The notes under the pieces are model-generated. The model did no database searches. It saw only the letters and a program-made list of their open reading frames with translations, and had not been told where the DNA came from. The position numbers and the translations under genes were made by a program. This document shows, in pieces, positions 407-47,714 of a DNA stretch of 48,619 nucleotides (position 1 is the stretch's first letter; the number at the start of each line of letters is the position of its first letter). Location: assembly GCA_029007725.1 (NCBI GenBank), contig JAQXIJ010000065.1:1-48619 (forward strand), read 5' to 3'. This DNA comes from Bacillota bacterium (lineage in GTDB: Bacteria; Bacillota; Clostridia; UBA1381).

Positions 407-2038
407 ATGAAAGATACATTTCGTGTTGGCATTTATGCTCGCTTATCTCGTGATGATAATAACGGAAATTTGGAAAGTATGAGTATCGCAAATCAGCGAC
501 AAATTCTTTCCGATTATGTAAACGAAAAAGGTTGGATATTGGTTGAAGAATATGTAGATGATGGATATAGCGGTACAAACTTTGACAGACCGGATTTCAA
601 AAGAATGTTAAAGGACATAGAGTGCGGAAAAATTGATTGTGTTGTTACAAAGGATTTATCACGGCTTGGCAGAAATTACTCGATGACAGGTTATTATACA
701 GATGAATATTTCCCGGAACAGCATTGCAGATATATTGCAATCAACGATGGCGTGGACACAATGGGAGCAAACAATGATTTTGCAGCATTCCACAATGTTA
801 TTAACGAATATTATCCACGAGATATTTCAAAAAAGGTCAGACAAGTAAAAAGGACAAATGCAGAAAAAGGTATGTTTATGGGTAGCAGAGCACCTTATGG
901 ATATAAAAAATCCCCGGAAGATAAACACAAACTCATTATTGACGAAGATACCTCTTGGGTAGTCAAAAAGATATTTGGTAAGTTTATCAATGGGGAAAAC
1001 GCACGGATGATAGCAGATGATTTGAATAATATGAATTTGTTATGTCCACGAGCATACTATTATCAGTTGCAAGGAAAAGATAATCCACGCAAAGATGAAT
1101 CTATGACTTGGAGCAGTGCCACAATTATGCAGATAATTCAGAAACAAGTATATATTGGAGATTTGGTTCAAGGTCAAAGACAGGTCGTTTCGTTCAAATC
1201 AAAGAAAAGACGATTAACCGAACCGGATGAATGGATTATAGTTAAGGGAACTCACGAACCAATTATAAGCCGAGATATATGGGATGAGGCACAGAAAATC
1301 CGTAAAGGCAGATACTACCCACGCAATGAACGGAAAGACAAGACCGATACCATATTTATCGGGTTGGTAAAATGTGCGGATTGCGGTGCTACTATGTGTG
1401 CGTCAATGAGGGGCAGACAGCCAAAGCTAACATACAGATGCGGTACATATTCAAATCACGGGAAAAATGTATGCACTTCTCATAATATCCGTGAAGAGGT
1501 TCTTGAAGCCATTGTGTTAAATGACATTCGTCACTATGCCTACATAGCAAGTCAAGACAAAGATTACTTAATAAAATCAATCAGCAAAATGCTTTCAAAA
1601 GACAAAGAGTCTGAGAGTAATATAATGCTTAAAGAATTAAAGAAAGCTGAATCAAAGGTTGAGGAAATAAACATCTCTATTAAAAGCCTTTATAAAGACA
1701 AGGTTACGGGGAAAATATCGGAAAAAATTTTTTATAATCTTCTCGAAGATTTTGAGAATGAGTTGAAAAATTGTGAAAATACCGCTTCTGTACTTCGTGA
1801 AAAGCTTGATATAAAAGCTACAACCGAAAGCGAAATCTCTCTTTTTGCCGATAGAATTTCAAAATGTTTAGACCTTACATCTATGAATAAGTTTTTAGCT
1901 CGTGAGTTAATTGAGTCGATAACTGTTTCCGCATATTATAAGGTTGACGGCGAAACAACGCAAGATGTAGACATAAACTATAAATTTGTGGGAAATCTAA
2001 AAAATTTAGAAATAAATTTTTTGAAGCAGGCTATGTGA
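407..2038 (+). CDS. Large serine recombinase, TnpX/TndX type
   Basis: A 543-aa site-specific recombinase. The N-terminal resolvase domain (about residues 5-150) begins VGIYARLSRDD, with Ser14 as the expected nucleophile and the conserved TKDLSRLGRNY motif further on. A recombinase DNA-binding domain follows (about 165-290), then a zinc ribbon with CADC and later CGT...C pairs (about 323-357), a coiled-coil stretch (about 390-465) and a DUF4368-like C-terminus. This order and length are typical of the recombinases of Tn4451 and Tn5397, which excise and insert elements through a circular form using a 2-nt crossover. Strong RBS (AGGAGG, 9 nt before ATG). The frame is intact with no visible damage, so the element may still be mobile. 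It could also belong to a stand-alone integrase remnant. Confidence 0.93.
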   Translation: MKDTFRVGIYARLSRDDNNGNLESMSIANQRQILSDYVNEKGWILVEEYVDDGYSGTNFDRPDFKRMLKDIECGKIDCVVTKDLSRLGRNYSMTGYYTDEYFPEQHCRYIAINDGVDTMGANNDFAAFHNVINEYYPRDISKKVRQVKRTNAEKGMFMGSRAPYGYKKSPEDKHKLIIDEDTSWVVKKIFGKFINGENARMIADDLNNMNLLCPRAYYYQLQGKDNPRKDESMTWSSATIMQIIQKQVYIGDLVQGQRQVVSFKSKKRRLTEPDEWIIVKGTHEPIISRDIWDEAQKIRKGRYYPRNERKDKTDTIFIGLVKCADCGATMCASMRGRQPKLTYRCGTYSNHGKNVCTSHNIREEVLEAIVLNDIRHYAYIASQDKDYLIKSISKMLSKDKESESNIMLKELKKAESKVEEINISIKSLYKDKVTGKISEKIFYNLLEDFENELKNCENTASVLREKLDIKATTESEISLFADRISKCLDLTSMNKFLARELIESITVSAYYKVDGETTQDVDINYKFVGNLKNLEINFLKQAM

Positions 2039-2060
2039 TAGCCGTAATATTGCGGCAAAG

Positions 2061-2086
2061 AAACAACCACTTTATTATGGCTGTTT
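2061..2086. repeat. Imperfect inverted repeat at the presumed element edge
   Basis: AAACAACC (2061-2068) and GGCTGTTT (2079-2086) match as inverted arms at 7 of 8 positions around a 10-bp A+T-rich centre. Just upstream, GCCGTAAT/ATTGCGGC (2041-2056) forms a second near-palindrome. Serine recombinase attachment sites are imperfect dyads of this scale, so one of these may be the right end. No second copy is visible in the window to prove it. Confidence 0.25.
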
Positions 2087-2092
2087 TAGGGC

Positions 2093-2128
2093 AAAAAAAA
2101 TTATGGTCATTATCAAAAATGACCATAA
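2093..2128 (-). terminator. Rho-independent terminator of the tRNA-Ser pair
   Basis: On the minus strand an 11-bp perfect stem (arms 2118-2128 and 2101-2111, 6-nt loop) is followed by eight T (2100-2093). It lies 5 nt beyond the 3' end of tRNA-Ser(GCU). The mobile element reaches up to, but does not disrupt, this terminator. Confidence 0.85.
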
Positions 2129-8897: not shown

Positions 8898-10100
8898 TTA
8901 TTCCATTGACGATACAATTTCTTCCGCCAGCTTTGCAACCGCTTCAAGCTGGTCGCTTTTCAGTGATGATTTTATCACAACAGAATTTTCAAGTATGGTC
9001 GTCCCCTTTATTGTTTCAAAAACCTCGCGCATCTTCTTTGCCGCAATAGGTGCCCAGCTGCCGTTGCCGATAAATGCCACCGTTCTGTTTTGCAAGTTGT
9101 GCTCCTTTATATCCCGAATCAGTGTTTCCATGTTGCAGAACACCGATGAATTGTATGTCGGCGCTGCAAACACAAGATGTGAGCGTTTGAATGCTTCTGC
9201 GACTATATATGATGGGTGCGTTACCGAAACATCAAACATTTTTATATCTGAAACGCCCATTTCAGCCAGTCTGAAAGCTAAAATTTCGGCCACATTTTCG
9301 GTATTTCCATAAACCGAAGCATAAGCAATCATAACTCCGCTTTCCTCCGGCATATATGTGCTCCACTTTTGGTATTTTTCAAAAAGATATTCGATATTTT
9401 CACGCCATACAGGTCCGTGCAGAGGACATATAACCGCGATGTCAAGTCCCGCCGCCTTGACCAGAAGCTGCTGTACATGAGTCCCGTATTTTCCGACAAT
9501 ATTGGTATAGTAGCGCCTTGCATCTTCCTCCCAGCCGTGCTCAAAGTCAAGCTCATCGGCAAAAATATTTCCCGACAGCGCACCGAATGTACCAAAAGCG
9601 TCCGCCGAAAACAAAATTTTGTCGGTTTTGTCATAGGTCACCATAGCCTCCGGCCAGTGAACCATCGGTGCCATAGCAAAGGTGAGTGAATGTCTGCCCG
9701 TTTCGAGGCTGTCGTCCTCCTTCACAATCAGAAAATTCGGTTCGGAGTCAAAGTCAAAAAATTGTCCCAGCATATTCTGTGTTTTTACGTTTCCGACAAG
9801 GGTTACGCCTGGATAAAGCCGCATAACAGCAGAAATCATGGAGCAGTGATCAGGTTCAATGTGATTTATTACCAAATAGTCGAGTTCTCGTCCGTCCAAC
9901 GCATATCGCAGGTTTTCAAGAAATCGTGCGGCAACAGAATTGTCAACGGTATCAAAAAGCACCGTCTTTTCGTCCTGCAAAAGGTAAGAATTGTACGAAA
10001 CTCCGCGCGGCAACGGAAACACGTTTTCAAACAGCGCCAGCCGGCGGTCACTGCTGCCTATATAGGTTAAATCTTCGGTAATTTTTCTGATACAGTACAT
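8898..10100 (-). CDS. fprA: Flavodiiron protein FprA (flavorubredoxin-type O2/NO reductase)
   Basis: A 400-aa soluble protein with a metallo-beta-lactamase-like diiron domain (1-250) followed by a flavodoxin domain (255-400). The diiron ligands are in place: H80-x-E82-x-D84-H85, H148 (MVHWPEAM), D167 (FSADAFG) and H228 (CPLHGP). The FMN phosphate loop is YASVYGNTENV (260-270). Class A proteins of this layout receive electrons from rubredoxin and reduce O2 to water, or NO to N2O, protecting strict anaerobes. Full length with no extra rubredoxin domain. ATG 10100 has GGAG 8 nt upstream. The gene has its own promoter (10256-10284) and an unusually structured leader of about 150 nt. Confidence 0.95.
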   Translation of the reverse strand: MYCIRKITEDLTYIGSSDRRLALFENVFPLPRGVSYNSYLLQDEKTVLFDTVDNSVAARFLENLRYALDGRELDYLVINHIEPDHCSMISAVMRLYPGVTLVGNVKTQNMLGQFFDFDSEPNFLIVKEDDSLETGRHSLTFAMAPMVHWPEAMVTYDKTDKILFSADAFGTFGALSGNIFADELDFEHGWEEDARRYYTNIVGKYGTHVQQLLVKAAGLDIAVICPLHGPVWRENIEYLFEKYQKWSTYMPEESGVMIAYASVYGNTENVAEILAFRLAEMGVSDIKMFDVSVTHPSYIVAEAFKRSHLVFAAPTYNSSVFCNMETLIRDIKEHNLQNRTVAFIGNGSWAPIAAKKMREVFETIKGTTILENSVVIKSSLKSDQLEAVAKLAEEIVSSME

Positions 10101-10249
10101 AACAAAATCTCCAATCCGCCGACCTGCATCGGCATAATAATAACAAGAGTTCTCTTATCGGCAGGACAAAATGATAAGAGCTTTTTTCGTATGTGTATAT
10201 GGAAGTTCCGCACCTCCGATTACTTCCGCCGGAGGTATGCCTCGGGCTT
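10101..10249 (-). promoter_or_regulatory. Structured 5' leader of fprA, candidate cis-regulatory RNA of unknown class
   Basis: Read on the minus strand. A 7-bp stem (10236-10230 with 10218-10212) closes an 11-nt loop whose GGAAGU (10227-10222) can pair with ACUUCC (10206-10201), an H-type pseudoknot. Segment A CUCUUAUC (10180-10173) pairs perfectly with segment B GAUAAGAG (10159-10152), but B can instead pair with segment C CUCUUGUU (10149-10142), so the two hairpins exclude each other. The A/B loop holds CCUGC (10165-10161), complementary to GCAGG in the loop of the hairpin GCCGA/UCGGC (10133-10118), which sits just before the ribosome binding site. I could not match it to a known riboswitch. 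Control of translation is inferred. Confidence 0.5.
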
Positions 10250-10255
10250 ACCGAC

Positions 10256-10284
10256 ATTTTATCACAAAAAGCGTCAAAGGTCAA
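10256..10284 (-). promoter_or_regulatory. SigA-type promoter of fprA
   Basis: On the minus strand: TTGACC (10284-10279), a 17-nt spacer and TAAAAT (10261-10256). Predicted start near 10249, directly ahead of the pseudoknot. It lies in the gap behind the deacetylase stop (10296), so fprA need not depend on readthrough. Confidence 0.7.
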
Positions 10285-21044: not shown

Positions 21045-22460
21045 TCATTCTCCTAAAATGTCTCTGACTATTTCCCTCTCGTCAAAATGGTTTTTGACCT
21101 TACCTATAATCTGATAGGTTTCCTGTCCCTTTCCGGCCAAAAGAACAATATCGTCTTTTTTAGCTATGGAAAGCGCATATTTTATAGCTTCCCTGCGGTT
21201 CACAATCACCTTGTACTCACCGCCTTTTACGCCTGCAACAATGTCGTCTATAATTTTTTTTGGATCCTCCGTACGCGGATTGTCCGATGTGATTACAGCG
21301 ATGTCTGCAAGCTTCGTTCCGATATCGCCCATAATCGGGCGCTTTGTCGCGTCCCTGTCACCGCCACATCCAAAAACTGCGATGCATCTTCCTTTTTTAA
21401 AGGAATTTACGGCATTCAAAACATTTTCGAGTCCGTCCGGCGTATGGGCATAGTCTATAATCACCGAATAATCGGTATCGAGCGGAACTCTTTCGAGTCT
21501 GCCCTTTACTCCCGTCGCATTTGCCAGACCGCAAAGCGCAGTTTTAATGTCCAAGCCGAGAGCTATCGCCGCTCCCAGCGCGCAAAGTGCGTTATACACA
21601 CTGAACATTCCCGAAATTGCTAGCTTTGCTGTATATTTTTCGCTATCGAACTCTGCCGTAAATTCAACGCCTTTTGCTTCTATATCTATATCCACCGCGC
21701 GCAAATCTGCGTCCTTTGTTCCTACACTCAGTGTCTTGCACGGAACGCTTTTTAAAAGTCTTGCGCCATAGTCATCGTCCATATTTATAACGCCTGTTTT
21801 TGAAATATCAAACAGCTTCTTTTTCGCAAGGAAGTAATTTTCCATTGTCTTGTGATAATCGAGATGATCGCGCGTGAGATTGGTAAATACGCCAACTTCA
21901 TATTCCAGTCCGTACACCCTGTGCAAATCGAGCGCATGGGACGAAACCTCCATGACAACATATTCCGCACCCATATCTACCATTTTTGAAAAAATCTGTC
22001 TCAGCTCAAGCGCGTTCGGCGTTGTCGGGGTCGTTGACCTAATGCCCACGTCTTCGTGTCCGACAAGAATTTCGTTCGTTCCGATAATACCGACCTTTTT
22101 CCCCGTCTGCTCCAGCATCGCTTTTATAAGATAACTTACCGTGGTTTTCCCGTTTGTGCCGGTTATTCCGACAAGCTTCAGCCTTTTCTCCGGTTCACCG
22201 TAAAACTTTGCCGAAATATTTGCCATTTCAATTTTTGTATTCTCGACAAGTACCAGCGGAACATTAACGTCAAGCGGCTTTTCGGCAACAATCACTGCTG
22301 CGCCGTTTTCCGCGGCTTTTTTTGCATATCGGTGTCCGTCGTCCTCCAAGCCGCTTATACAGATGAACACATATCCGTTTTGAACCTTTCTCGAATCAAT
22401 CGCGATACCCGTAATTTCGATATCTGGCATTTTATTTCCAAACAATTCACTTGCTAACAT
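21045..22460 (-). CDS. murE: UDP-MurNAc-L-Ala-D-Glu:meso-diaminopimelate ligase MurE
   Basis: A 471-aa Mur ligase with the ATP site ITGTNGKTTVSYL (99-111), the FTNLTRDHLDYH block and, decisively, DNPR (393-396), the signature of enzymes that add meso-diaminopimelate rather than lysine. The peptidoglycan is therefore predicted to be of the mDAP type. Start chosen at ATG 22460, which has GGAG 5 nt upstream; the frame is open for another 11 codons but without an RBS. A small stem (GCCGCA/TGCGGC, 22475-22491) sits just upstream of the RBS. Unlike its neighbours it is separated from the upstream gene by a 175-bp gap. Confidence 0.96.
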   Translation of the reverse strand: MLASELFGNKMPDIEITGIAIDSRKVQNGYVFICISGLEDDGHRYAKKAAENGAAVIVAEKPLDVNVPLVLVENTKIEMANISAKFYGEPEKRLKLVGITGTNGKTTVSYLIKAMLEQTGKKVGIIGTNEILVGHEDVGIRSTTPTTPNALELRQIFSKMVDMGAEYVVMEVSSHALDLHRVYGLEYEVGVFTNLTRDHLDYHKTMENYFLAKKKLFDISKTGVINMDDDYGARLLKSVPCKTLSVGTKDADLRAVDIDIEAKGVEFTAEFDSEKYTAKLAISGMFSVYNALCALGAAIALGLDIKTALCGLANATGVKGRLERVPLDTDYSVIIDYAHTPDGLENVLNAVNSFKKGRCIAVFGCGGDRDATKRPIMGDIGTKLADIAVITSDNPRTEDPKKIIDDIVAGVKGGEYKVIVNRREAIKYALSIAKKDDIVLLAGKGQETYQIIGKVKNHFDEREIVRDILGE

Positions 22461-22635
22461 AAAATCTCCGTTCCGCCGCACCTTTTGCGGCACAAAATAG
22501 TACTATATAAACCCTCTTTTGCCCGAAATGAACCGACAAAATTTTTCTTCCTCTGTCATGGATCGTACAAAAACCTGTACCCGATTTATCAAAGCAAAGT
22601 CGGGCGAACAAAGTCCGCCCTTATATAAAACAATA
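22461..22635 (-). other. Structured 175-bp gap inside the wall cluster
   Basis: No gene. On the minus strand GGGCG/CGCCC (22620-22616 with 22606-22602) and CCCGA/TCGGG (22604-22600 with 22584-22580) share three bases and cannot form together. GTACA/TGTAC (22580-22576 with 22569-22565) and GCCGCA/TGCGGC (22491-22486 with 22480-22475) follow. None has a T-run, so these are not ordinary terminators. The segment could be an mRNA processing or attenuation site between the PBP gene and murE. Confidence 0.4.
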
Positions 22636-47135: not shown

Positions 47136-47639
<504 letters not shown>

Positions 47640-47653
47640 TTAAAATTTCCAAA

Positions 47654-47679
47654 CGCTTTATCCGCGGACCGATAAAGCG
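47654..47679 (-). other. 9-bp hairpin between ntpI and ntpK
   Basis: CGCTTTATC (47654-47662) and GATAAAGCG (47671-47679) are exact complements around an 8-nt loop. On the minus strand it is followed by TTTGGAAATTTT rather than a T-run, so it is a poor terminator. It sits about 50 nt ahead of the proteolipid start and may mark mRNA processing or stability. Confidence 0.45.
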
Positions 47680-47714
47680 ACCTTGTGCACTGCCGTTTCG
47701 CCGGTCGGTGCGGT

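Follow-up and report, generated by a model that had tools for sequence, protein, structure and literature searches.

The window, by which we mean the whole 48,619-nt stretch of DNA analyzed (contig JAQXIJ010000065.1), carries on its minus strand fprA, a flavodiiron protein or flavorubredoxin-like gene, preceded by a leader bounded by a promoter-like sequence (10284-10256) on one side and by the start of the gene (10100) on the other. The features of this leader, together with one related module elsewhere in the window, are as follows:

8898 to 10100, minus strand: fprA, start ATG at 10100-10098; NCBIfam flavorubredoxin match at E 3e-69, below the equivalog cut-off
10256 to 10284, minus strand: promoter-like TTGACC-17-TAAAAT, a consensus match only
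10228 to 10247, minus strand: putative degenerate hairpin I, GCCCGAGG-CATA-CCTCCGGC, from minimum-energy fold prediction
10201 to 10236, minus strand: H-type pseudoknot of the first reading, present in the sequence and not conserved
10188 to 10213, minus strand: putative degenerate hairpin II region, GTGCGGAACTTCC..CACATACG, aligned by eye to the family sequence GTGCGAAATTTTC..ACGCACATGGGC
10100 to 10192, minus strand: right half of the element (hairpins III and IV and its own Shine-Dalgarno sequence, SD); covariance model R1, 87.5 bits, E 5e-17 in the search of the genome
10178 to 10187, minus strand: 5' arm of the long-range alternative pairing, AAAAAAGCTC
10173 to 10180, minus strand: 5' arm of hairpin III (H1), CTCTTATC, 8 bp with 10152-10159
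10161 to 10167, minus strand: loop 1 side of the loop-loop contact, GTCCTGC
10152 to 10159, minus strand: 3' arm of hairpin III, GATAAGAG, partner of 10173-10180
10121 to 10127, minus strand: loop 2 side of the loop-loop contact, GCAGGTC
10118 to 10133, minus strand: hairpin IV (H2), GCCG-ATGCAGGT-CGGC
10109 to 10112, minus strand: element-borne SD, GGAG, invariant in alignments A2 and A5
10101 to 10111, minus strand: 3' arm of the long-range alternative, GAGATTTTGTT, overlapping the SD
22458 to 22554, minus strand: related right-end module at another gene start, a GCCG hairpin with CGGAACGGAG; 31.9 bits, without H1

An earlier note on this DNA had read the leader as one that looks ligand- or stress-sensing and controls fprA, starting from a good promoter and folding into a 5' pseudoknot, two competing hairpins and a loop-loop contact, and these proposals fare differently. 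The promoter match is present, but since 13 such sites are observed against 8.3 expected, it constitutes weak evidence. At the 5' end, the stem ACCTCCG/CGGAGGT (10236-10230/10218-10212) does enclose loop bases, GGAAGT (10227-10222), complementary to ACTTCC (10206-10201). However, an equally good pseudoknot arises in 45 of 2000 dinucleotide shuffles (2.3%), and this one is absent from the family described below, whose units carry two other hairpins at the same position. By comparison, the 8-bp hairpin III and the hairpin IV proposed next to the SD (stem arms GCCG at 10133-10130 and CGGC at 10121-10118) both lie where they had been placed, exceed chance expectation and are conserved, as is the contact between their loops, which in addition covaries. 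The window copy retains a core of CCTGC (10165-10161) complementary to GCAGG (10127-10123) in this contact, with one U-U mismatch among the seven pairs. The competition between two pairings is likewise real, but the conserved competitor is not the one first proposed: pairing 10152-10159 with 10149-10142 leaves only a 2-nt loop (10151-10150), so that this hairpin is unable to form fully, and it is not conserved, whereas the conserved alternative pairs a 5' arm (10178-10185) with the SD region (10104-10111), in the window through CTC and four A-U pairs with one mismatch.

The folding energy of the leader as a whole is unremarkable (z = -1.8), and a mechanical scan of the window for hairpin and kissing-loop modules near start codons returned only noise and missed the real module. 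The leader had been said to belong to no known class, and this is borne out by Rfam, which gave no match at the gathering score for the leader or for eight further loci, and only sub-threshold chance matches (E 0.4-9) at permissive thresholds.

A dispersed family located at start codons

When the leader was used as a nucleotide query, only its 3' 86-90 nt recurred, with many occurrences per genome, in related genomes. A covariance model (R1), built from 23 copies, found a second strong copy in the genome of the window (C46:78314-78408, 88.7 bits). The open reading frame that follows this second copy (L057) has just 10 codons (MIKKELQAHF), and its host gene is possibly broken or misplaced. An order-level search gave some match in 62 of 95 genomes at E ≤ 0.01, many of them weak, and a class-level search gave matches in 33 of 391 genomes at E ≤ 1e-6. 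Deeper searches found between 5 and 26 copies in single genomes of rumen and gut Clostridia; above threshold, G340 has 26, G439 has 20 and G171 has 17. Most of the genomes are metagenome-derived drafts. Carriers among the matches listed by a pattern scan of named genomes, which required the first hairpin and GCCG but neither SD nor ATG, are again Clostridia of the rumen and gut, with Marasmitruncus massiliensis and Ructibacterium gallinarum among them. Full units are mostly 176-184 nt long and share one order of parts: the left end TAACGTGAAAG, hairpin I, CCTCCGGCGG, hairpin II, hairpin III, hairpin IV, the SD GGAATGGAG, ATTTTT and the ATG of the host gene. No copy of hairpin I was found independent of full units, save for a degenerate copy and palindrome matches on the opposite strand, and IMG/VR, searched by the H1 pattern, yielded no copy. 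We found no description of this element family in the open-access literature. The fprA leader is thus one copy of a previously undescribed family of hairpin-rich elements of roughly 180 nt.

The right half is intact at fprA, where the SD lies 8 nt from the ATG (6 nt in most copies), and the left half appears to have decayed. We take 10228-10247, on inspection of alignment A5, to be the probable positional homologue of the left-end hairpin that in the family goes with CCTCCGGCGG, and the by-eye alignment suggests that 10188-10213 is a remnant of hairpin II. One copy elsewhere (L263, around 2001-2096, minus strand) has its hairpin II segment duplicated in tandem.

The position of the copies is highly specific. 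Among 87 copies counted in seven genomes, with rows classified by reading, 75 lie directly at a gene start; the others comprise nine first units of tandem arrays, two copies just upstream of a native SD and one that is unexplained. Similarly, 90 of the 99 unique matches listed in a first set, which come mostly from the pattern scan with no SD or ATG requirement, stand at an ATG that opens a reading frame, and among the matches listed the ATG of 71 of these 90 follows the first base of GGAG at a distance of exactly 10 nt, while eight of the remaining nine are first units of tandem arrays. In such arrays, the second unit is located between the SD of the first unit and the ATG. A further SD core is found within 16 nt to the left of the unit in 83 of 100 non-tandem full-length units, compared to 12% of background windows, and the gap between this core and the left end of the unit is mostly 3-6 nt, such that removal of the unit would restore a normal SD-ATG spacing.

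The genes downstream share no function. The 122 distinct genes preceded by the element represent 168 Pfam families, none of which occurs in more than four genes, and their translations, as read by us, include eno, arginine biosynthesis, mreB, coaX, rnf, sporulation and transport functions, among others. This bears directly on the proposal that the leader is a ligand- or redox-sensing riboswitch specific to fprA, which would account for a structured leader with kissing loops and an alternative pairing able to mask the SD in front of an O2/NO reductase. A metabolite riboswitch would be expected to precede genes of a shared pathway or transporter, and no such sharing is seen. Moreover, the fprA homologues of seven same-genus genomes (44-46% identity) lack the element, and copies elsewhere are polymorphic for presence and absence at orthologous sites (see below). 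We therefore consider a riboswitch of this kind extremely improbable.

Covarying pairs and alternative folds

Covariation was assessed in 52 units whose mutual similarity is below about 88%. Both sides have changed in 7 of the 11 pairs of hairpin I and in 7 of the 9 of hairpin II, while in the loop-loop contact 5 of 7 pairs are changed on both sides and 97.2% of cells are paired. Hairpin III is paired in 98.8% of cells and conserved without double changes; hairpin IV is paired in 98.5% and is nearly invariant, so that it can show no covariation. In the long-range pairing between AAAAATCTC and GAGATTTTT, which overlaps the SD, 7 of 10 pairs are changed on both sides and 90.9% of cells are paired, and one of its pairs is A-U in 24 sequences and U-A in another 24. 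The observed covariation scores were reached in none of 500 shuffles and lie above every slid control; relatedness among the units can inflate the shuffle control, and the slid control is less affected by it. Hence, of the structures put forward from the window sequence, the loop-loop contact covaries and the main hairpin is conserved, but the 5' pseudoknot and the downstream alternative are not.

Since hairpin III and the long-range pairing have the CTC bases in common, the two are mutually exclusive. We note, however, that G-U and A-C combinations are about equally frequent in the paired columns (65 and 57, respectively), and because G-U barely exceeds A-C, the pairing may be constrained in the DNA, or in either strand, instead of in the sense RNA.

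These data can be set against the idea of a regulon-wide cis-regulatory RNA, responding to a global protein, an sRNA or temperature, that is selected at many genes and has spread secondarily by recombination. The strict start-codon position and the conserved pairing that could mask the SD fit such an RNA, as does a kissing-loop architecture that, with another stem sequence, also precedes secE in several species. On the other hand, the target genes share no function, copies differ between closely related species at most of the loci compared, and the weak G-U excess is contrary to expectation for a sense RNA, and we regard this explanation as improbable.

Presence and absence at orthologous sites

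For four copies in the genomes G122 and G154, the site in the sister genome is empty between the same flanks, and a third species (G270) lacks the element at all four sites. Two of the unoccupied alleles in this genus have a plain ribosome-binding site (AAGGAGGTGTTTATATG and GGGGAGCTGTTTTTATG), and in the corresponding occupied alleles the unit separates this SD from the ATG. Another four sites, occupied in G439, are unoccupied in G218, at greater divergence, and cmsearch gave no match at any of nine comparison loci (L282, L283, L285, L286 and L395-L399). These eight orthologous empty sites, which are clearest where the unit separates the native SD from its ATG, indicate that the element is mobile and targeted to start codons. 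The evidence for mobility comes from copies other than that in the window, whose left half is degenerate; the fprA homologues in the genus, at only 44-46% identity, are too divergent for an empty-site comparison. In the orthologous tandem pairs of G122 and G154 (L254 and L260), the last unit differs by a patch of the type found in another unit (L256), which suggests gene conversion between copies.

An fprA-specific sensor is unlikely. The finding is larger than the one first reported, namely a start-codon-targeted mobile family with a strongly covarying fold. Our preferred reading, to which we assign a probability of roughly 80%, is that the element is mobile, non-coding and targeted to start codons, and that the fprA leader is one of its copies, with a decayed left half.

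Several observations bear on how the units move. The four junction pairs reveal no consistent target duplication, and spacer bases are partly replaced. Whole units have no terminal inverted repeats, as the left end TAACGTGAAAG and the right end GGAGATTTTTA are not inverted copies of each other, and an inverted repeat bounds only the right half. No transposase or other mobilizing gene was found traveling with the unit. As candidate mobilizers, IS200/IS605 (Y1) transposases, reverse transcriptases (RVT) and IS110 are each missing from several of the carrier genomes, which are drafts, and none occurs in all carriers; one carrier with 26 copies has neither Y1 nor reverse transcriptase. An IS110 beside a relative on a Roseburia plasmid looks coincidental, because a relative on a fecal phage has at that place a reading frame that we assign, from its translation, to the IS256 type. 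We also considered whether the sequence to the right of hairpin I is an inverted copy of the host flank: the mean complementarity is 3.39 compared to 2.98 in shuffles, about the maximum of 2000, but the number of long matches (20, compared to 14 in shuffles, with a maximum of 22) is not unusual.

The same observations weigh on a more conventional explanation, in which an ordinary transposase that targets ATG-like sequences moves the element as a MITE, and the bias toward start codons reflects the survival of tolerated insertions. The element is indeed mobile, non-coding and hairpin-rich, it forms tandem copies, and it displays the insertion polymorphism without coding capacity that is expected of a MITE. 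Against this, there are essentially no isolated copies in neutral intergenic DNA, the whole unit has no terminal inverted repeat and no consistent target duplication, and the three mobilizer families tested provide no common transposase. Taken together, this makes a conventional MITE rather unlikely.

Returning to a start-codon-targeted element, we propose that the unit would enter in the sense direction, its right end adjoining the ATG, and that it would usually take the place of part of the spacer that separates the native SD from the start codon. The CCTCC in or just after hairpin I could then pair with, and mask, the stranded native SD, while the SD of the element would take over, such that expression of the gene would continue and the insertion would be tolerated. 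With hairpins III and IV folded and kissing, the new SD would be free, and pairing of AAAAATCTC with GAGATTTTT would hide it, which might provide an on/off translation setting common to all host genes.

Relatives of the right end hint at a wider group. The secE leaders of several species of one genus, in another family of the order (L101-L104 and L107), have the same layout of hairpin, kissing hairpin and SD, with a different hairpin III and with loops that, by inspection, pair CATGC with GCATG; this layout may be a relative of the mobile unit that has been retained vertically. Within the window, the right-end module at 22458-22554 (GTGCCGCAAAAGGTGCGGCGGAACGGAGATTTTATG), which lacks the CTCTTATC hairpin, precedes a gene that starts MLASELFGNKMPDIEITGIAIDSRK and is MurE-like by eye. 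A weak model match (20.5 bits) at 47601-47690 on the minus strand has a different stem, CGCTTTATC/GATAAAGCG, and a loop GTCCGCG complementary to CGCGGGC, and precedes an open reading frame (47136-47615) that looks like ATP synthase subunit K. Finally, three loci, namely the Roseburia plasmid NZ_CP135163 (L393), the fecal phage MT836273 (L394) and L059, have elements at gene starts that differ in their body but end on the right in the same way, with TTTCATTACTATTTGTGCCG..CGGCGGAATGGAGATTATTATG, which suggests a superfamily.

A bolder version of our preferred reading, which we put forward tentatively and at somewhat less than even odds, is that this is a mobile RNA-structured element truly specific for the SD-ATG spacer, which replaces the spacer, masks the old SD via CCTCC and installs a switchable one, placing dozens of unrelated genes under one translational switch; the shared right end (GCCG hairpin, GGAATGGAG and ATG), joined to different upstream halves in Lachnospiraceae and in the secE leaders, would then define a superfamily. 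If true, this would be a start-codon-homing superfamily that uses an undescribed mobility mechanism.

Comparison with other dispersed repeats

The enterobacterial and pneumococcal small repeats ERIC, BOX and RUP, and MITEs, are, like this element, small, dispersed, hairpin-forming and non-coding. To our knowledge, they are neither confined to the SD-ATG spacer nor carriers of the SD of the host gene. BOX and RUP are among the repeats covered by PMC3049150.

Mycobacterial MIRU are closer. These are described as short, apparently mobile repeats that insert at start codons while the host gene stays expressed (PMC12548453, citing Supply et al. 1997), and they carry an open reading frame whose translation is coupled to that of the gene, with a spacing of -4 nt (PMC12548453). 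Our element resembles them in its mobility at start codons (eight empty orthologous sites, and 75 of 87 copies at a start), and differs from them in bringing its own SD and a covarying multi-hairpin fold. It also has no coupled reading frame of the MIRU kind: the frame from an internal GTG in hairpin I to the ATG is random (36/34/28), and in 71 of 85 copies the open reading frame has already stopped when more than 20 nt are left to the ATG.

The SAS/ESAS repeats of cluster K mycobacteriophages are described as lying immediately upstream of the starts of unrelated genes, with a suggested role in translation initiation and, in the extended form, an upstream inverted repeat (PMC3203893). They have a 13-bp core, GGGATAGGAGCCC, and 17-bp inverted repeats, and are well conserved between phages at the same gene families (PMC3203893). 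The sequence of our element is unrelated: in our alignments the right end of the family is CGGCGGAATGGAGATTTTT, and GGGATAGGAGCCC is not found at the start. In addition, the element has kissing loops and empty-site mobility, neither of which is reported for SAS/ESAS in the passages considered here. The TAACTGA repeats of Beggiatoaceae are concentrated just upstream of starts, with no common downstream function (PMC4679880), but they are direct repeats of a heptamer that have neither SD character nor a hairpin architecture. SAS/ESAS and TAACTGA repeats have only their position in common with the element.

Start-codon repeats have been reported in mycobacteria, in their phages and in Beggiatoaceae without a clear mechanism. 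The present family offers many copies, empty sites with readable junctions and strong covariation, and its hosts include cultured species; both how a mobile element chooses the SD-ATG gap and whether rewiring many ribosome-binding sites creates a shared translational control can be tested with it. Annotation of gene starts and 5'-UTRs in these genomes should check for the element. The closest known kind is that of start-codon repeats such as MIRU, which work differently, and we conclude that the element is a new form of start-codon-associated mobile repeat within this known kind, distinct from MIRU, from SAS/ESAS and from the TAACTGA repeats.
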